The notes under the pieces were generated by a model that was not told the DNA's origin, did not search any database, and saw nothing but the letters and a program-made list of their open reading frames with translations. Source: Candidatus Colimorpha merdihippi (GTDB lineage: Bacteria; Bacteroidota; Bacteroidia; Bacteroidales; P3). Taken from it: 35,012 nucleotides of DNA. Positions 7,084 through 17,994 of the stretch are shown here, piece after piece (the stretch's first letter is position 1; every line of letters starts with the position of its first letter). The position numbers and the translations under genes are program-made. The stretch is from NCBI GenBank assembly GCA_018066145.1, contig JAGHRY010000092.1, forward strand, positions 1 through 35,012, read 5' to 3'.

Positions 7084-7091
7084 TATCTTTG
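7084..7091 (+). promoter_or_regulatory. -7 element TATCTTTG immediately before the GNAT-HD gene
   Basis: TATCTTTG ends 9 nt before the ATG at 7101, implying a very short leader. Confidence 0.5.
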
Positions 7092-7100
7092 CAAGTGAAT

Positions 7101-8249
7101 ATGAACACAAATAGAATCATTCGCAAGGCGCAAGCCGATGAAATACAGACAATCATGTCCATGTGCAACCATTCTCGCAGCATTATGCGGGCCAATGGGA
7201 ATACCACACAATGGGTAAATGGATACCCCTCATCAGCCACCATCGAACTGGATATCGTCAACGGCAATGGATATATTGTGGAAGAAAACAACAAAGCCAT
7301 TGGATATTTTGCCTTTATCATTGGTCCAGACCCCACCTACAGTATTATCGAAAAGGGCAGCTGGCTCGATGACGCTACCCTTTATGGAACAGTACACTGC
7401 CTTGCTTGCGCTCCCGGTTACCACGGCGTGGCAAAAAGCTGCTTCGAATGGTGCCAGACACAAGCCGCCTGCGTGCGGGCCGACACCCATGCCGACAATC
7501 ACATCATGCAGCACATCATGACCGGATTAGGCTTTTGCCGATGCGGCGTAATATATGTGGCTGACGGGACTCCGCGCGACGCTTACCAAAAAATGACTTA
7601 TCCTATGGTAGACTCCAATTTGAAATCCTATATCGAAAACGAAATTCTACCACAATACTCCCACTTCGACTCAGCTCACCGGCTGGACCACATACAATAT
7701 GTGATGGCGCAAAGCCTGGAACTAGCCCAGCACTATCCCCAACTCAATAACAATATGGTATATGCCATTGCCGCCTACCACGACACCGGACTATCTGAAG
7801 GTCGCGAACGCCACCATTTGGTGTCGGGCCAACTGGTACGCAAAGATGCAAATCTGCAAAAATGGTTCTCATCCGACGAAATCGAAACAATGGCTCAAGC
7901 CGTCGAAGACCACCGTGCTTCGGCCCTAAGCGCCCCCCGAAGCCTCTACGGGATGGTGGTGGCAGAAGCCGACCGCGACATTGAGCCCATGAAGATTGTG
8001 CGCCGTACGGTGCAATACGGCCTCACCCACTACCCCACTCTCGACAACGAAGCCCAATGGCACCGATGCGTAGGCCACCTGGAGGAAAAATATGCCGAGG
8101 GCGGTTACCTAAAGTTGCTCATTCCCTACTCGCGCAACAAGGGTCAGCTTGAGAAGTTATGGGCCCTTATCGCCGACAAGAAAGCACTACGCAGGGTATA
8201 TGATGAAATAATTGAGGCAGAAAACATACCAAATAACAAAATCCAATAA
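7101..8249 (+). CDS. GNAT-like acetyltransferase-HD phosphohydrolase fusion protein
   Basis: N-terminal GNAT-like region (IRKAQADEIQTIMSMCNHSRSIM...NGYIVEENNKAIGYFAFIIG...GTVHCLACAPGYHGVAKSCFEWC); C-terminal HD motifs (RLDHIQYV, AIAAYHDTG, HHLVSG, VEDHRAS, AEADRDI). Confidence 0.75.
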   Translation: MNTNRIIRKAQADEIQTIMSMCNHSRSIMRANGNTTQWVNGYPSSATIELDIVNGNGYIVEENNKAIGYFAFIIGPDPTYSIIEKGSWLDDATLYGTVHCLACAPGYHGVAKSCFEWCQTQAACVRADTHADNHIMQHIMTGLGFCRCGVIYVADGTPRDAYQKMTYPMVDSNLKSYIENEILPQYSHFDSAHRLDHIQYVMAQSLELAQHYPQLNNNMVYAIAAYHDTGLSEGRERHHLVSGQLVRKDANLQKWFSSDEIETMAQAVEDHRASALSAPRSLYGMVVAEADRDIEPMKIVRRTVQYGLTHYPTLDNEAQWHRCVGHLEEKYAEGGYLKLLIPYSRNKGQLEKLWALIADKKALRRVYDEIIEAENIPNNKIQ

Positions 8250-8261
8250 ATATAAGACATT

Positions 8262-8762
8262 ATGAACACTTTATTGATTGTATTGGCCATCCTACTGGCT
8301 GTAGTAGGCATCATTGGTTCTGTTGTGCCCGGGCTGCCGGGTCCACCCATCAGCTGGGCGGGTTTGCTGCTATTGAAGTTCACCTCGGTGGCAGACCAAG
8401 CGAACAGTTGGCCCTTACTGATAGGAATGGCGGTAGCCGCCATCGTCATCACCGTGCTGGACTATATCGTGCCAAGCCTCAGCACCAAAAAACATGGCGG
8501 AAGTAAAGCCGGCGTATGGGGTTGCAACATCGGTTTGGTAATATCCATCATTGGCCTCCCCTTTGGCCCACAGGGAATCATCGGCATCATCTTCTGGCCT
8601 TTTGTTGGCGCATTGGTGGGCGAACTTCTCAATGGCAAGCAATCGCGCGAAGCGCTGCGTGCAGCTTGGGGCGCATTCTTGGGATTCCTCCTTGGCACCG
8701 GGCTGAAATTGGCCTACACGCTGGTTGTTGCAGTTATCATTGCACTAGACATCATCCGATAA
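8262..8762 (+). CDS. DUF456 family membrane protein
   Basis: Hydrophobic; VVGIIGSVVPGLPGPPISWAGLLL and GLPFGPQGIIGIIFWPFVGALVGELL typical of DUF456. Confidence 0.82.
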   Translation: MNTLLIVLAILLAVVGIIGSVVPGLPGPPISWAGLLLLKFTSVADQANSWPLLIGMAVAAIVITVLDYIVPSLSTKKHGGSKAGVWGCNIGLVISIIGLPFGPQGIIGIIFWPFVGALVGELLNGKQSREALRAAWGAFLGFLLGTGLKLAYTLVVAVIIALDIIR

Positions 8763-8775
8763 GATAATATTATCT
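8762..8775. other. 14-bp perfect palindrome AGATAATATTATCT
   Basis: Self-complementary, spans the end of the DUF456 gene. Confidence 0.6.
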
Positions 8776-8778
8776 AAG

Positions 8779-8831
8779 AATGGGTTCTATCCATTTGTTG
8801 TTTGACCCAACAGCAATCGATAGAACCCATT
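8779..8831. terminator. Bidirectional terminator candidate between convergent genes
   Basis: 13-bp perfect arms AATGGGTTCTATC (8779-8791) and GATAGAACCCATT (8819-8831) with an inner TGTTG/CAACA stem, between a plus CDS and a minus CDS. Confidence 0.6.
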
Positions 8832-8854
8832 TCTTCTAATTCGCTTGAGCGGTT

Positions 8855-9943
8855 TTATTCAACACCTATCAGTTTTTTCACCCGGCGAACCAATTTCAAC
8901 ACAAATCTCAAACCATAAGCACGGGCAAATATTTCAATCCTCTGGGGTGATTCGTAATACCTGATAATCGGGGCAAACACTTTGCGAGCTTCGCGACACT
9001 GGCGTGTTGTATATTCGGGACAAAAGACAAAAGGCATTGAGTAATTGATTGCCCTGTCGATAAACAAATCATGGTACCGACCTTGGCTCATCTTATCCAA
9101 CCCCAACAGCATATTCACTTCCGAAGCTGCCCCCTTGATCATTTTAAATCGATTCGTCTTCTTGTCTTTCGCAAACTGCGAATTCCACGAACTCTCATCC
9201 ATCTTATATCGATATGCGGCCATTTTGTCGGCAAAATAATAAACCTCGCCTTCAATAGCCGACAGTATCTGCCAACAGTAATCGCACACATGGCATTGAA
9301 GTGTGCAAGGGGTATTGCGCCGCATCTGCTCTATTCTGAAACGCATCATCAATGTACAGGTAATCATATAATTGCCCTTATTCTCAATCATTGCCTCCGG
9401 AGGGACCAGCGTGTCGGTATCAAACCGATGCCAATCAAGTTCGCCATCATTAGTTAACACCTGCGCATCAGAGAAACAAAGCATGCAGCCGGGATGGGCA
9501 TCCATCCAATCGGCCTGGCGCTGCAGTTTGTCAGGCGCTATCCAATAATCATCGCCTTCGCACATGCACATATAATCGGGCGCGCCCATCCACTCGTCGA
9601 AATATGGATAACGCGGCTTGCCTTTCTGCAAGTGATTCTCAGCAAGGAGCACCACCGCCAAGAAACAATTGGGATTCTGCAAATGAGGGCCATACAGCAC
9701 TTCGCCGTACGACGTATTATGTACGCCGTAGTCGGGTTGCGAGGTAAGGTCGCACTGGGTTTGCATATATTCTCTGAGTACCTGTTGTTCGTTGTCGGTA
9801 GAACAATCATCCATAATACAGCACACAAACGGGAAATCAGTTTGCTGCATACTGAACCCGCCCAGGGTATCGAGAATCCGATGGGCCTGGTTATAAGTGT
9901 CGCAACGGACACCCACCTTGAAGTGAAACTTGTTATTCATCAT
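8855..9943 (-). CDS. Family 2 glycosyltransferase
   Basis: KVGVRCDTYNQAHRILDTL...FVCCIMDDCSTDNEQQVL, CEGDDYWIAPDKLQRQADWMDAHPGCMLCFSD. Confidence 0.85.
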   Translation of the reverse strand: MMNNKFHFKVGVRCDTYNQAHRILDTLGGFSMQQTDFPFVCCIMDDCSTDNEQQVLREYMQTQCDLTSQPDYGVHNTSYGEVLYGPHLQNPNCFLAVVLLAENHLQKGKPRYPYFDEWMGAPDYMCMCEGDDYWIAPDKLQRQADWMDAHPGCMLCFSDAQVLTNDGELDWHRFDTDTLVPPEAMIENKGNYMITCTLMMRFRIEQMRRNTPCTLQCHVCDYCWQILSAIEGEVYYFADKMAAYRYKMDESSWNSQFAKDKKTNRFKMIKGAASEVNMLLGLDKMSQGRYHDLFIDRAINYSMPFVFCPEYTTRQCREARKVFAPIIRYYESPQRIEIFARAYGLRFVLKLVRRVKKLIGVE

Positions 9944-9948
9944 AGCGG

Positions 9949-10806
9949 TTAACATCCATATTCTCCAAAACCGGGCTTGAGGCCCAACAATTGACGCAAT
10001 TCGGCAGATGTGCACACCTTGCGACCCATAGCATTGGCTATAGTGCCAATACGTTTAAGGTATTGTGCATTGGTAGCCAGTATAGTACGCTGGTCATCCA
10101 GCCAAATGTTATCTTCCAGTCCTACCCGCACCCCATAGCCCATCGAAACGGCTAACGCATTGATACGCAACTGTGCATTGCCTATGCCGCCAAACACCGT
10201 CACCGACTCTTCGGGCAAATCGTTCACCATCACTCCTACATGCAGCAAATCAGCCTGGGCACAGGCCACATTGCCCATGATGAGATTGAAGAAATAAGGG
10301 GGGCTCAACAGCTTTTTGCCAATAAGATATTTTGCATAATTGATCATGCCGGCATCAAAAACCTCCAATTCGGGTTTGATGCCCTGTTCGGCCATTTTGG
10401 ATGCCAGCCGCATAATCATATCGGGAGAATTGATGCTTGCAGTTTTATTGAAATTGAGGGAACTCAACGTCAAACTGGCCATGTCGGGCTTTGCATTCCC
10501 AATCAGATTCAGCACATCCGAACGCTTATCGAACTCGTTATAGATTCGACCGCTGGTAGTTGCCGAAACCACCAGATCGGGGGCAAACTGACGAATGCCA
10601 ACAATAATTTCTTCAAAATACTCGCGTTCCCATACCGGGTCCTCGGTCTGGGGATGGCGGGCATGCAGGTGCACCGACGAAATGCCTATGGCCACAGCCT
10701 CGCGCACCTCTTCGATTATTTCTGCCGGTGTGATAGGCACATGCGGCGTATCGGACTTGCGCATAAGCATACCCGTTGGTGTAAACGTAACTACTAGATT
10801 ATTCAT
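9949..10806 (-). CDS. BKACE / DUF849 beta-keto acid cleavage enzyme family protein
   Basis: SSVHLHARHP (HxH metal-binding motif), VVSATTSGR, NLIMGN, TVFGGIGNAQLRINALAVSMGYGVRVGLEDNIW (Arg/Glu/Asp motif). Confidence 0.88.
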   Translation of the reverse strand: MNNLVVTFTPTGMLMRKSDTPHVPITPAEIIEEVREAVAIGISSVHLHARHPQTEDPVWEREYFEEIIVGIRQFAPDLVVSATTSGRIYNEFDKRSDVLNLIGNAKPDMASLTLSSLNFNKTASINSPDMIMRLASKMAEQGIKPELEVFDAGMINYAKYLIGKKLLSPPYFFNLIMGNVACAQADLLHVGVMVNDLPEESVTVFGGIGNAQLRINALAVSMGYGVRVGLEDNIWLDDQRTILATNAQYLKRIGTIANAMGRKVCTSAELRQLLGLKPGFGEYGC

Positions 10807-11449
10807 GCTGCTTCACTGAGGTTACTTTTGCCGGCACACCCATCACGGTGCAATAAGAATCAACATTCTTCACAACCACTGCCCCCATACCTACCACACA
10901 TTCATCGCCAATCGTGATGCCATCACGCACCGCCGAGGCTAACGAAATCTCATTGTGATTACCCATTCGCAGCATGCCTCCAACTTTGCAGCCCGGACGG
11001 AAGGTGTTGAAACTACCAATGTTGAACTCGTGGCCAAGATACACCTGCTGCCGAATTACATTGCACGACCCCATCACCCCGCCATAGCCTAAATCGGCTC
11101 CAGCATACACAATATTGTTGTCGCCCATCACCAAATCACTATCAGTAAAGGCTCTGGGGCTAATATAGTTTATCAGTTTGTAAGGACCATCGTGCAAGCG
11201 TTCATATAGTTGCTGAAACACCTGAGGCTTGCCATTTCCACGAACCATCAGCATATCGTATTGTTCGGGCGAATATTTGTCAACCAATTCGTCGTATGGC
11301 ACCACTGGCAAATCATACATTCGGTCGGCTGTAATATACTGGCGGTCAACAGTGAGTACTACCGGATTGACAGCACCAAACCGATCCACCTCTGAAAGGA
11401 ACTGTTGAGTCATATTGGCTGTGCCAAAAATAATAAGGTCTTTTTTCAT
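10799..11449 (-). CDS. PglD/NeuD-like left-handed beta-helix acyltransferase
   Basis: N-terminal KKDLIIFGTANMTQQFL Rossmann-like start, hexapeptide repeats (VYAGADLGYGGVMGSCNVIRQQVYLGHEFNIG...ITIGDECVVGMGAVVVKNV), MGVPAK end motif. Confidence 0.82.
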   Translation of the reverse strand: MKKDLIIFGTANMTQQFLSEVDRFGAVNPVVLTVDRQYITADRMYDLPVVPYDELVDKYSPEQYDMLMVRGNGKPQVFQQLYERLHDGPYKLINYISPRAFTDSDLVMGDNNIVYAGADLGYGGVMGSCNVIRQQVYLGHEFNIGSFNTFRPGCKVGGMLRMGNHNEISLASAVRDGITIGDECVVGMGAVVVKNVDSYCTVMGVPAKVTSVKQHE

Positions 11450-11489
11450 AATCTTGGAAAGAAATGTGCCTATAATTTATAATAAAACA

Positions 11490-12686
11490 TTAATAAACGA
11501 TAGGTTGTATCAAATCGTTAGCATTTTCCACTACCTTTTCGAACAATTCTTTATCTGTAAAACGTAGCATCACAATTCCCACATAAGGTCCTGGCTGATT
11601 ATTTTTTTCAACAGTTTCGTTGGTATCAATCCACATATCGTAATCCACCACATTTGTTACTATCTCAGAACTGATTTTCAGTCGTTGAAACTTGCCAGTC
11701 TGTTCTACATGCGGTGTAGCCATCAACCAGTAGTCGCTAGTTTGGCATATATCGGCCTCTACCATTGGAAGGCCTACAGCCGATAGGATTACATTGTCAA
11801 AAAAATGTGTGCCATAGGCCCTATCTTGGATGGCACAAAGCATGAATCCTCCTGGACGAGGAGAGCACTCCATCATATACGCTTTGCCGTCAACTCCGAT
11901 GCGGAACTCCACATTCAAGATTGTTGTATTTACATGCAGTAACTCAATAAGACGCTGCAGTTGGTTGAGGCAGTCGACCTGTTGTTGCTCCGTTAGGCAG
12001 GTGGGCCATCCAAGCAAATGGGTTGTGAGGGGATTCACCGCTGTAGGGTCAATTCTTTTAAAATTAAATATAGAATGTTGCAATTGACCTTCTACAGCAA
12101 AAAAGTCCGAATCGGATGTTGGTATGTCGGTTTGGATGAAAGTTTCAATAATATATTGCCCGGAAAGCGAATTGTCCAAGGCTTCCCGTATGGCATCAGC
12201 CAGCTGATCGGAATCATTTACGCATGTAACGCCACGGCTGCCAGCCGAATCTACAGGCTTGACTAATACCGGATAATTCCACTCCAATGCTGAAGCGACT
12301 CCTTCTGATAAAGATGAGAACGAACGTTGCACAGGCACATTAAACCCATTATCTTCCAAAAATTGGCGGAATCGGCCTTTGTCCTGAAGAATACAAACCG
12401 ATTCGTATGGAGCAATCAACGGCAGTCCTAACTGTTCCTGTACATATGCAACAGTGTTGATTGGGCGGTCGGACCAGGTGACAATACCATCAACCTGATG
12501 CGTGCGACAATACTCAGCGACTGCATCCTTATCCAAATAGCTCAACTCAGCCATTTCGTCAGCATACTGATGACCCGGATTGCTCGATCTGTTGTCGCAG
12601 GTGATAACGTATATGCCCAATTCACGCGCCCGACGGATGGCCGGTATCGAATCGCGACTAGCGTTTAAAAACAACAACTTTTTCAT
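11490..12686 (-). CDS. ATP-grasp ligase (398 aa)
   Basis: YPVLVKPVDSAGSRGVTCVND, YIIETFI, LNVEFRIGVDGKAYMMECSPRPGG. Confidence 0.85.
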   Translation of the reverse strand: MKKLLFLNASRDSIPAIRRARELGIYVITCDNRSSNPGHQYADEMAELSYLDKDAVAEYCRTHQVDGIVTWSDRPINTVAYVQEQLGLPLIAPYESVCILQDKGRFRQFLEDNGFNVPVQRSFSSLSEGVASALEWNYPVLVKPVDSAGSRGVTCVNDSDQLADAIREALDNSLSGQYIIETFIQTDIPTSDSDFFAVEGQLQHSIFNFKRIDPTAVNPLTTHLLGWPTCLTEQQQVDCLNQLQRLIELLHVNTTILNVEFRIGVDGKAYMMECSPRPGGFMLCAIQDRAYGTHFFDNVILSAVGLPMVEADICQTSDYWLMATPHVEQTGKFQRLKISSEIVTNVVDYDMWIDTNETVEKNNQPGPYVGIVMLRFTDKELFEKVVENANDLIQPIVY

Positions 12687-14134
12687 TTCTGTTTCTCAAG
12701 TTTGATACACAAACGGCTGCATACTATTTCTGCAAGCGGCTCCCATTGCGCCTCGGTACAAACAACCTGTTCGGGACTTTCTATTTGCGCCAAAATAATC
12801 ACCGGTACAGGATTCTTCGGATCTAGGTCAAATGCAATCAATCCCGATTCTGAAGGCAGCGGATGCCCATGGGCAATCACAGTCACACTACATCCCGCTG
12901 CTATCCACTCTGCAAGACGAGCCCTATCGGGCAACCCCATAACAAGTATCCTTCTTTGGGCCATGGCATTTTTAGGAGCAGTATCTTTCATCAATTCGGG
13001 GCATCCATCTACCGACCAGTAAATAAAACTGTTCACGTCAGCCATATTCGTATGGGTAACATGCTGCAGCTGCTCGGTAACGCTGCATTTTTGCCAGCAC
13101 CAACGATAGTTTTCACAATTACGGTAAACTGGTTGGTACTGCCTGGTTTTGTCGAAAACACAAACAATACCCGAAGAACCCCTGTAGCGGGGAGTCAGCA
13201 TCGTCTTATCAAACGACCCCAAGGCTGCCTCTATGGCGCACTGGTGGTAGCTGATGCCAATACCAATATCCACCATAGGATAACTGATAGGCCATCCCCC
13301 CATTCGAGGATTCACCTCTACCAGATACACTTCGTCTTTATGTATAATCAATTCGGTATGGCAGGGACCGTCGGTATGTCCTATAGCGTTAAGTATGCTG
13401 TTGATGGCATCAGTCACCTTTGCCTGCAAGATTTCGGAAATGGGAGCAGGTGCTTGCGCAACCATCTCTACACAATGCGGAGGACCCGATGTAACCATTT
13501 CGGCAATCTGCACCATGTGATGCACCCCTTGGAACGAAAGCGACTCCACCAGATAAATCGTTTCCTCAGGAACAAATTCCTCGGCCAGCATCATTCCCTC
13601 GGCATGTGCATCGTCCATGGTATACTGGTAGGCAGCATCCATCTGCGAGGCATCATTCACCACCATCACCCCCCGCTTGGCACAGCCTTGTCGGGGTTTG
13701 AGAATAAAGGGAAAGGAAAGATGAGCCGCTTCCAAATCGGCAAACGACATCACCTTTGCAAACCGGGGCTGCCGCACTCCAGCAGCTGCTGCCACCTTGG
13801 AGCGCACCCAGTATTTGTCGGTAACATGGAGCCCTTCCTCCAGCGTCATTCCCCTAAGTCCTAGCGCATTGGCCACCCTGGCTGTCGACTCGGTGGTAAT
13901 ATCCGATGTGCTTACCACACCCCCTACCCCTATCTGGCGGCATTGGGCTGCAATGGCATCGACATCGAAAATATCAATTGGATAAAAATAGTCGGCCAAA
14001 GCCTGGGTCGTCGACCCTTGCTCCGACGCAAAGCAATGAGTTTCTACCCCCATCCATCGCGCAGCCACCATGTATATACCAGCAGCCTGACCGGCACCAA
14101 TAATAGCCAATTTTCTAGTTCCTGACCGCAACAT
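12683..14134 (-). CDS. ATP-grasp ligase with extra C-terminal domain (483 aa)
   Basis: FPFILKPRQGCAKRGVMVVND, MLAEEFVPEETIYLVE, HTELIIHKDEVYLVEVNPRMGG; ~100-residue extension RRILVMGLPDRARLAEWIAAGCSVTVIAHG...; 4-bp overlap with the next ATP-grasp gene. Confidence 0.85.
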   Translation of the reverse strand: MLRSGTRKLAIIGAGQAAGIYMVAARWMGVETHCFASEQGSTTQALADYFYPIDIFDVDAIAAQCRQIGVGGVVSTSDITTESTARVANALGLRGMTLEEGLHVTDKYWVRSKVAAAAGVRQPRFAKVMSFADLEAAHLSFPFILKPRQGCAKRGVMVVNDASQMDAAYQYTMDDAHAEGMMLAEEFVPEETIYLVESLSFQGVHHMVQIAEMVTSGPPHCVEMVAQAPAPISEILQAKVTDAINSILNAIGHTDGPCHTELIIHKDEVYLVEVNPRMGGWPISYPMVDIGIGISYHQCAIEAALGSFDKTMLTPRYRGSSGIVCVFDKTRQYQPVYRNCENYRWCWQKCSVTEQLQHVTHTNMADVNSFIYWSVDGCPELMKDTAPKNAMAQRRILVMGLPDRARLAEWIAAGCSVTVIAHGHPLPSESGLIAFDLDPKNPVPVIILAQIESPEQVVCTEAQWEPLAEIVCSRLCIKLEKQK

Positions 14135-14194: not shown

Positions 14195-14593
14195 CTAATA
14201 GATATATCTCGAAATATGGTCGTCGGGGTTTACGGGATTGGTTTCTTGCGTGTTCATGTCCATGAACGAAACCTCGATATCGGTCACCTCGTCTTCATCG
14301 AGATAGAAATAGTCGCTGCAATACCATTCGATAATCCTATTGCCAACAACGCCTTCCACGCCTATGACCACATACGAAGTGGTTGGGTCGGACTCGATTT
14401 CGTAAATCAGATTGTCGATATTCTTAATCTCGCGCCTTGCCACCAGGGTGCCGCCAGCCATGTATTCGAATACCGTCACGTTGGCAAAAGAGGTGGTATT
14501 ATCGGTATAACGAATCGTGTAACTTTTTTCCTTCGAACACGATGCCAAAGCCAGGCTAAGCACGGCTGCCAAAATCAGAAGCAATTTTTTCAT
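14195..14593 (-). CDS. Small predicted lipoprotein
   Basis: MKKLLLILAAVLSLALASCSKEK signal peptide with lipobox LASC. Confidence 0.7.
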   Translation of the reverse strand: MKKLLLILAAVLSLALASCSKEKSYTIRYTDNTTSFANVTVFEYMAGGTLVARREIKNIDNLIYEIESDPTTSYVVIGVEGVVGNRIIEWYCSDYFYLDEDEVTDIEVSFMDMNTQETNPVNPDDHISRYIY

Positions 14594-14638
14594 AATCAAT
14601 ATCAATAATGTTAATAATTAATTTTGTTCAAACTCAAT

Positions 14639-15214
14639 TTATTCGCCAGCCACCTGGGCAAAAGAATGCACCGGGGCTATAGCGTTGATGCGGTCGTGGT
14701 CGTAAAGGTCGGGAAACTCCACCAGGAAGAGGAATTCTTTCACCTTCACCTTATATTCCTTGCCGTCAAGCACCACGGTTTCTCTATTCAGCGCCTCGGC
14801 AATGCCGATGGCGGTGCCGCCGGTGGCGAGGATATCGTCAAAGAACGTCAGCTCAAAGGTGTCGCCATTGGGCTTGCCGGCAGCAATATCGGAAAGACGG
14901 TAATACACATGGTCGGCACCATATTCCTTCATTATTTCCACATCATGCAAGTCGCCCTCGCTGAAGGGGAGCTTGCCTTTTTTGCGAATCGGCACTATAT
15001 TCTGCACCAATTTCGACTGCGTAAGCAGGGGTGCGGCAAAAAAGAAACCGCGAGCCTCCACCGTCACCACATTGGGGCAGTGGGTATGTGCATCAATATC
15101 TCTAACTATCTCATTAAAAGCCTCTTTATTCGACAAAAAAGGCAGTATATCGATAAAGTCTATACCCGGTTTTGGAAAGTCGGGATAATGATTAATTACG
15201 TCTAAATAGTTCAT
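14639..15214 (-). CDS. apt: Adenine phosphoribosyltransferase
   Basis: PDFPKPGIDFIDILPFLSN, VEARGFFFAAPL, FFDDILATGGTAIGIAEAL PRPP-binding motif. Confidence 0.9.
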   Translation of the reverse strand: MNYLDVINHYPDFPKPGIDFIDILPFLSNKEAFNEIVRDIDAHTHCPNVVTVEARGFFFAAPLLTQSKLVQNIVPIRKKGKLPFSEGDLHDVEIMKEYGADHVYYRLSDIAAGKPNGDTFELTFFDDILATGGTAIGIAEALNRETVVLDGKEYKVKVKEFLFLVEFPDLYDHDRINAIAPVHSFAQVAGE

Positions 15215-16656: not shown

Positions 16657-17994
16657 TCATAATTCATACTTCCTATAGTATGCCACCACAAGCACTATTG
16701 CGGCGCCTATCCAGGCCAGCATGTCAATCATCACAATGCCGTTGTAGCCCCAAATCTTGGGAAGGGTGAAGGATGCTGCACAACGAATGGCAAGCTCCAA
16801 CAGCCCGGCCATCAGCGGCCAGAAAGTGCGGCCAATGCCTTGCAACGCATTGCGGTAGACGAATATCAGATAGAGGAATGGGAAGAAGATGGCGGTTACA
16901 AACAAATAACGTCCCGAGGAGTAATAGATTTCGCCCACATTAGGCAGGGCGGCCATTTCGGCATCAACATACATAGAGGTGAATGCATCGGGCCACAACA
17001 GCAACGCGCCCGACGACACCACACACACGGCCATGACGATGGCCAGCGTGGCTCGCACGCCCCGATGCACCCGCAACATATTGCCAGCACCATAGTTTTG
17101 GCCGGCAAAATTGGCTATGGCAGTGCCAAAGGCCATGGCCACCAGAGCACCGATATTCTGTATCTTGTTGGCGGCGGTGAAGCCGGCAATATAGGTGGAA
17201 GGAAACTCGTTGAGGGCCGCCTGCAAGAGGATAAGGCCGATGGACACGATACTAAACTGCAGGGCCATGGGCATGCCGATGCGCAGATGCTCCTTCACCT
17301 CATCCACTTTCAAGTCGAAATCGGCTCGGCCGAGGCGCAGAAACTGGTATTTGCGCATAGCGTAGCCATAGCTTAGCAAAGCCGAGAGGGCCTGAGAAAT
17401 AACCGTGGCCAATGCGGCACCCTTTACGCCCCAATCCATTCTTACGATGAAAAGCAGGTCCAATCCCACATTCACCACCGATGAGAATATAAGGAAATAC
17501 AACGGCGTGCGGCTGTCACCAATGGCACGCAACGCACAGGCTATCATGTTGTAGGCCATCGTAGCCACGATGCCTAGCACAATGACTATCAGATAGCCGT
17601 AGGCATAGCCATACACGTCGGCAGGGGTGCCCATCCAGCGGAGCACCGGACCGCACAAGGCGGCTCCAGCCCCCGTAAGCAGCAGCGCCGTGGCGGCACA
17701 AATAACCAAACTCGTGGCCAGCGAACGACGAAGCTGCGCATAATCGCCTTTGCCGAAAGCCTGTGCCATACAGATGCCCATGCCGCTGGTGATACCCAGA
17801 ATGAAGCCGATGATGAAGAACGTGATGCCGTTGCTCACGCCCAAGCCCGCCAAGGCCTGGTAGCTGACGTTGCGGCCCACTATGATGCTGTCGACCAGCT
17901 GGTAGCATTGCTGGAATACATTGCCAATAATAATGGGTATCGAGTACAAGGTTATCACCCTAACGTACCCACCCTTTGTCAGATCCAGTTCCAT
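16657..17994 (-). CDS. MATE family efflux transporter
   Basis: 445 aa, multi-TM; IPIIIGNVFQQCYQLVDSIIVGRNVSYQALAGLGVSNGITFFIIGF typical MATE N-terminus. Confidence 0.9.
   Translation of the reverse strand: MELDLTKGGYVRVITLYSIPIIIGNVFQQCYQLVDSIIVGRNVSYQALAGLGVSNGITFFIIGFILGITSGMGICMAQAFGKGDYAQLRRSLATSLVICAATALLLTGAGAALCGPVLRWMGTPADVYGYAYGYLIVIVLGIVATMAYNMIACALRAIGDSRTPLYFLIFSSVVNVGLDLLFIVRMDWGVKGAALATVISQALSALLSYGYAMRKYQFLRLGRADFDLKVDEVKEHLRIGMPMALQFSIVSIGLILLQAALNEFPSTYIAGFTAANKIQNIGALVAMAFGTAIANFAGQNYGAGNMLRVHRGVRATLAIVMAVCVVSSGALLLWPDAFTSMYVDAEMAALPNVGEIYYSSGRYLFVTAIFFPFLYLIFVYRNALQGIGRTFWPLMAGLLELAIRCAASFTLPKIWGYNGIVMIDMLAWIGAAIVLVVAYYRKYEL

Follow-up and report, generated by a model that had tools for sequence, protein, structure and literature searches.

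The window analysed here, a 35,012-nucleotide stretch of DNA from Candidatus Colimorpha merdihippi (contig JAGHRY010000092.1), carries a cassette of five minus-strand genes encoding two ATP-grasp ligases, a NeuD/PglD/VioB-like acyltransferase, an enzyme of the BKACE (DUF849) family and a GT2 glycosyltransferase. The cassette is a precise 5.4-kb acquired block, and we tentatively favour the view that this horizontally acquired operon equips a sugar with unusual acyl and amino-acyl substituents, with the BKACE making the acyl donor. The conserved part of the cassette is the BKACE and ACYLTRANSFERASE pair. It is possible, and is put forward here with caution, that this BKACE belongs to an undescribed subfamily, found in many bacterial phyla and on at least one archaeal contig, that would make a dedicated acyl-CoA for an adjoining NeuD- or GNAT-type acyltransferase working on sugars or amines, with ATP-grasp enzymes as recurrent extras. 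What is known of BKACE enzymes comes mainly from catabolism. If a clade is indeed linked to acyltransferases across many phyla, a part of the family that so far has no function would gain a testable role, bacterial glycans could be expected to carry novel acyl groups, and unusual acyl-CoAs could be reached by new routes; the cassette, compact and self-contained, is a unit in which that role can be tested.

The evidence for acquisition comes from gene order. In all 12 genus relatives examined, the DUF456 gene and the lipoprotein/APRT genes that flank the cassette lie side by side, leaving no space for five genes (the small lipoprotein itself was unmatched in two of the 12), and in the window they lie 5.4 kb apart. 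Because the flanking genes are adjacent in every one of these relatives, the five genes are one insertion and not a chance run of genes; it falls between positions 8763 and 14194 and comprises exactly these five. The APRT-like and HD genes on either side of the block are often about 1 kb apart in genus relatives. Foreign base composition was considered as a mark of acquisition and rejected, as both the GC content of the cassette and that of its third codon positions (GC3) match the flanks; the case for acquisition therefore rests on the empty sites and not on composition. No integrase was found among the genes scanned near the cassette, and carriage by a phage or plasmid was discarded, ligase 1 having no phage match and the plasmid matches being distant. 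Many of the 190 same-family genomes are incomplete, so that single absences mean little, and the pattern does not depend on any one genome. Five intact frames, tight operon spacing, kept catalytic residues, GC values equal to those of the flanks and an insertion of exactly five genes all argue against the least probable of the alternatives weighed here, namely that part of a capsule locus, decaying or opportunistic, was transferred as one piece without a pathway of its own; in favour of such a fragment, every gene is of a kind known from polysaccharide loci and the full set occurs in one genome only among those searched.

The initial annotation had proposed a search for conserved co-occurrence of the five families in order across Bacteroidota, and such conservation is not supported: the full set was not found in any other genome searched, neither by BKACE in 190 genomes of the same family and 393 of the same order nor by ligase 1 in 295 genomes. 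What recurs elsewhere is only the BKACE-acyltransferase pair and, loosely, a combination of ATP-grasp, acyltransferase, CoA enzyme and GT2.

The window BKACE belongs to PF05853, which it matches with 259.8 bits (cut-off 24.8) over positions 2-274 of 274. Against the Kce equivalog NF052387 it scores 217.9 bits (cut-off 382) and against the 3-oxoadipate BKACE model NF053568 it scores 183.2 bits (cut-off 350), below the threshold in both cases. The genome holds two BKACE genes, and the other copy (contig C147) is a lysine Kce, with 408.7 bits against the same cut-off of 382. A lysine Kce identity for the window enzyme was ruled out by its sub-cut-off score, its loss of Glu14 and its separate clade on the tree, which stands apart from Kce with 100/100 support and a long separating branch. 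Public records label clade members as 3-keto-5-aminohexanoate cleavage proteins. The window type was absent from the 190 same-family genomes searched, which held only Kce-like copies of about 32% identity, and clade members were found in seven other genomes of the 393 from the same order (39-58% identity). When GTDB was scanned with an alignment of the same-order members, at least 565 relatives, confirmed by tblastn, came to light; the best 80 of these carry at least 15 phylum labels, including one archaeal contig, and single labels may be wrong as many members come from metagenome bins.

Clade members (GMIP motif, SGR, SLTL[SG]S) were also seen on two plasmids, pRSE21 of Salmonella enterica (L189:8001-8870) and one of Streptomyces camelliae (L190:7989-8843). 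Both genes adjoin those for GTP cyclohydrolase II and for a methyltransferase, and riboflavin synthase and gamma-glutamyltransferase are encoded close by, in flavin-type clusters that additionally hold RibD in the first case and rosB/ribX in the second. These clusters offer a lead to flavin-related natural products, as a different DUF849 enzyme makes flavophos, an inhibitor of lumazine synthase (PMC12871164).

At most loci of the clade, the BKACE is accompanied by an acyltransferase. Clustering of the neighbours of 83 loci placed a GNAT of about 215 aa directly adjacent in 37, nearly always downstream and on the same strand, and a NeuD-like protein of about 222 aa directly adjacent on the same strand in 30, with spacings that are mainly overlaps or gaps of less than 40 bp. 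A recount free of gene calls gave a same-strand acyltransferase within 400 bp in 75 of 87 loci (42 GNAT, 33 NeuD-like), L041 and L067 being one locus in this set; L045 carries another GNAT, by Pfam, in the order BKACE, GNAT, ATP-grasp. Neither partner was found at any of 30 canonical Kce loci, controls that all come from one bacterial family, and the two partner families account for 85 of the 1316 open reading frames (ORFs) in the same data. Partner type changes about six times on the tree, compared with 30.7 times in shuffles. Two unrelated acyltransferase folds are thus interchangeable beside one enzyme, which suggests that acyl transfer is the function common to the GNAT and NeuD-like partners. 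The idea, first raised in the initial annotation, that the BKACE could supply an acyl-CoA to the acyltransferase has good support at the level of genomic association, from many phyla, two folds and the glycan loci that surround NeuD-linked pairs; in chemical terms it is a proposal.

Sugar genes predominate next to NeuD-linked pairs. The 93 proteins contiguous with NeuD-linked pairs include 11 DegT aminotransferases, nine GT2 and nine radical SAM proteins, six WbqC, four Polysacc_synt_2 proteins of the 4,6-dehydratase type and two cytidylyltransferases, and one locus (L042) runs DegT, NeuD-like, BKACE, GT2. Amide-forming enzymes are recurrent, not constant, partners: in Winogradskyella (L053, L071, L077) the BKACE and GNAT are followed by two tandem ATPgrasp_ST proteins, a type associated with sugar transfer, and in Gelidibacter by at least one, and in L072 a FemAB-like protein comes after the pair.

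The cassette acyltransferase (P0004) scores 132.9 bits over the full TIGR03570 model, below the cut-off of 160.8, and the NeuD-like partner in L042 reaches 178.5 bits, above it. The best PDB matches of P0004 are VioB, a pilin glycosylation acetyltransferase and a perosamine N-acetyltransferase, and its likely catalytic His140 is conserved in 34 of the 38 members of its cluster.

In the BKACE itself, the alignment retains the Zn ligands H46, H48 and E230 (Kce numbering), together with S82 (Thr in the window), E143, R226 and D231. The invariance of SLTLSSLNF and ExExFDxGM is partly forced, as these stretches, unlike residues 14 and 86, served as search patterns. Glu14, the residue that binds the substrate amino group in Kce, is replaced by Leu in the window and by an aliphatic residue in 82 of the 83 clade members, and Arg86 is invariant in the clade. 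The same combination of an aliphatic residue 14 and Arg86 is found in 3no5 and 3chv, both of the 3-oxoadipate type and above the NF053568 cut-off. As these residues agree with those of 3-oxoadipate BKACEs, the R group of the acyl donor is unlikely to be cationic, and the beta-amino acyl group that had been suggested for the cassette is not supported.

A reversed order of steps would also suit a pocket in which Glu14, the amino-group holder in Kce, has given way to Ile or Leu throughout the clade. The acyltransferase would then N-acylate an amino keto acid before the BKACE, with its uncharged pocket, cleaves it, and the two would form a catabolic or salvage pair, as the many GNAT-linked pairs that are two-gene units amid housekeeping genes might imply. 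We consider this distinctly unlikely, second among the alternatives, on the grounds that NeuD-linked pairs are embedded in sugar-nucleotide operons and that NeuD-type enzymes are sugar N-acyltransferases (TIGR03570, with the L042 partner above its cut-off).

A second question of chemistry is raised by BsfD, a DUF849 enzyme of flavophos biosynthesis that does not cleave its beta-keto acid substrate but turns it into a 1,3-diketone by C-acetylation and decarboxylation, behaviour tied to a Tyr-to-Phe change at a residue implicated in cleavage; according to the same preprint, all BKACEs have Tyr at this place, Kce position 145 (PMC12871164). Position 145 is Phe in the window and in all 83 clade members, as it would be if the window enzyme worked like BsfD. 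However, Phe145 also occurs in all seven Bacteroidales Kces checked (L001, L005, L007, L012, L015, L026, L030), of which one was scored and lies above the NCBIfam Kce cut-off, and in 3no5 and 3chv. Since Phe145 is shared with genuine Kces and 3-oxoadipate BKACEs, it does not decide the chemistry, and Tyr145Phe was ruled out as a marker of the BsfD reaction. The insertion of about 20 residues after strand 3 of BsfD is absent from the window BKACE, which has about four extra residues in alignments, and a BsfD-like route to a diketone is improbable, ranking third among the alternatives.

The view in the initial annotation that the ATP-grasp proteins are ligases agrees with their resemblance to L-amino acid ligases. 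The two are about 22% identical to each other. The nearest solved structure to ligase 1 is the L-amino acid ligase BL00235 (E 8e-25), and the ATP-grasp residues K146, E261, E273, N275 and R277 are present, all but N275 being invariant in four relatives; its AlphaFold model was poor (pLDDT 62, four sequences) and was not used for comparison. The C-terminal 110 or so residues of ligase 1 (12683-13020) are absent from the relatives found and have no confident structure; they are possibly an extra domain. For ligase 2, the AlphaFold model (pLDDT 90) superposes on BL00235 and BacD with TM-scores of 0.84-0.85, the best matches by this measure, and K143, E260, E273 and R277 are invariant.

Twelve same-family genomes, this one included, carry relatives of ligase 2 at 30-40% identity, with a second locus in this genome (contig C175), and most of the loci inspected are of the polysaccharide type. 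The nearest counterpart to the cassette is found in L147 and L148, polysaccharide loci of two same-family genomes, where the order is Wzx, DegT, ligase 2, an extra gene (L147 only), NeuD-like, MaoC hydratase, HpcH/HpaI lyase and GT2, that is, the same order with another CoA-enzyme pair in the place of the BKACE. Between these loci (L147:5745-13480 and L148:6766-13667) the CoA enzymes are 97-100% identical and the NeuD-like genes 28%, so that the two loci count only once for the CoA part, the acyltransferase having apparently been exchanged. A further locus, L159, holds NeuB, Wzx, DegT, a ligase-2 type, an unknown gene, a ligase-1 type and a hexapeptide gene. In a same-genus genome, a ligase-2-type ATP-grasp of 744 aa (L150:9812-12046) has about 345 extra N-terminal residues without a Pfam match.

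Relatives of four of the cassette genes are typical of capsule-type loci. The initial annotation had allowed that the cassette might prove to be a piece of a well-characterised capsule or lipopolysaccharide locus. This was not the case, as no flippase, polymerase, aminotransferase, priming transferase or sugar-nucleotide gene was found among the scanned neighbours, which are HydF, a TonB receptor, ArsP, HD, DUF456, APRT, MATE, LRR, a short-chain fatty acid transporter, a phosphatase, a permease and UPRT. In the open-access literature, no account was found that bears on BKACE with acyltransferases, O-antigen or capsule.

That the cassette stands alone, without polysaccharide export genes, is also what would be expected if its product were not a surface glycan but a small molecule that diffuses away, such as a modified compound of the dipeptide-like kind made by BacD-type ligases, which the GT2 would glycosylate. 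For both ligases the closest matches are L-amino acid ligases, among them BL00235 and BacD; about 2.5 kb upstream is a gene for a MATE exporter (16657-17994), and members of the BKACE clade occur in flavin-type clusters. The nearest relatives found of both ligases and of the GT2, however, are in polysaccharide loci, and the empty sites place the MATE gene beyond the insertion; a small-molecule product is unlikely, and ranks first among the alternatives.

If the cassette decorates a sugar, as we favour, the enzymes could act in four steps. The BKACE would convert a beta-keto acid, R-CO-CH2-COO-, and acetyl-CoA to R-CO-CoA and acetoacetate. From R-CO-CoA, the NeuD/PglD-like enzyme would acylate an amino group, most likely on a nucleotide-linked amino sugar whose synthesis is encoded elsewhere in the genome. 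The two ATP-grasp enzymes would form amide bonds, either to couple an amino acid to a carboxylate on the sugar or on the acyl group or to link two building blocks, and the GT2 would move the finished sugar onto an acceptor. Several points weigh against this scheme. The cassette encodes no aminotransferase, dehydratase, flippase or polymerase; the substrate, product, acceptor and R, like each step and its place in the order, are inferred. The Pfam match of the GT2 is weak, and a Phe-bearing DUF849 enzyme that performs different chemistry exists (PMC12871164). Many GNAT-linked pairs in marine Flavobacteria lie among housekeeping genes and not glycan genes, the two plasmid members in flavin-type clusters have no annotated acyltransferase alongside, and the general role of the BKACE-acyltransferase pair may be wider than glycans.

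The gene layout first described for the cassette was recovered in full (Table 1): five ORFs with, in order of transcription, a 4-bp overlap, a 40-bp gap, an 8-bp overlap and a 5-bp gap, and profile domain calls that agree with all five family assignments. The 5-bp gap assumes that the GT2 starts at the ATG at 9943; the longest ORF call begins at a GTG at 10015 and overlaps the BKACE. The GT2 scores 30.5 bits against PF00535 (cut-off 23.3), its BLAST matches are 28-34% identical to GT2 proteins of polysaccharide loci, and the motifs DDCSTD and EGDDYW can be read directly in the sequence. The hairpin at the left edge of the insertion is a possible shared terminator of the GT2 and DUF456 genes. 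A search for Bacteroidota promoters gave none directly upstream of the cassette, the number of matches not being above chance. Farther to the left, positions 7089-8249 form one frame with its own N-terminal half and a C-terminal HD phosphohydrolase half, and the two halves match separately in several relatives (e.g., G023, G026 and G053), suggesting fusion or split.

Table 1. Cassette genes and flanking features in the window, with the basis of each assignment.
Feature	Positions	Strand	Basis
ATP-grasp ligase 1 (P0002, 483 aa), first cassette gene	12683..14134	-	ORF and domain calls
ATP-grasp ligase 2 (P0003, 398 aa)	11490..12686	-	ORF and domain calls, AlphaFold model
NeuD/PglD/VioB-like left-handed beta-helix acyltransferase (P0004, 216 aa)	10799..11449	-	TIGR03570, PDB matches
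BKACE/DUF849 enzyme (P0001, 285 aa), acyltransferase-linked clade	9949..10806	-	PF05853, residues, tree
GT2 glycosyltransferase	8855..9943	-	PF00535, BLAST, motifs
Strong hairpin between convergent GT2 and DUF456 gene ends	8776..8835	.	-27.7 kcal/mol, z -6.7
DUF456 gene, left flank, outside cassette	8262..8762	+	Adjoins lipoprotein/APRT in 12/12 genus relatives
Small lipoprotein (14195-14605) and APRT-like gene (14639-15214), right flank, outside cassette	14195..15214	-	Gene order of relatives

Each part of the cassette can be set beside a known system. The window BKACE shares with Kce (NF052387, PDB 2y7d) the TIM-barrel DUF849 fold, by homology, the Zn ligands and the catalytic residues, and is about 32% identical to the Kce of the same genome; it differs in scoring below the equivalog cut-off, in the loss of Glu14, in the gain of Arg86 and the SLTLSSLNF stretch, and in having an acyltransferase partner. 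The 3-oxoadipate:acetyl-CoA BKACE (NF053568) has the same aliphatic residue 14 and Arg86, and here the difference lies in the window enzyme's low score against that model. BsfD is alike in its DUF849 family, in Phe at the Tyr145 position and in a likely use of acetyl-CoA, whereas the window BKACE has neither the long insertion nor phosphonate genes and does have an acyltransferase partner. The sugar N-acetyltransferases NeuD, PglD and VioB (TIGR03570; PDB 7txp, 4m98) resemble P0004 in fold, judged by sequence, and in the active-site His, although P0004 falls slightly below the TIGR03570 cut-off. BL00235 and BacD are the best TM-score matches for ligase 2 and share its ATP-grasp residues, but identity in the structural alignments is 13-20% and the relatives of the cassette ligases are in glycan loci. 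Finally, surface-polysaccharide loci with ATP-grasp ligases, as in L147 and L148, combine a ligase, a NeuD-like protein, CoA enzymes and a GT2 in a similar order, from which the cassette departs in lacking Wzx, DegT and a polymerase and in carrying a BKACE instead of MaoC and HpcH/HpaI.

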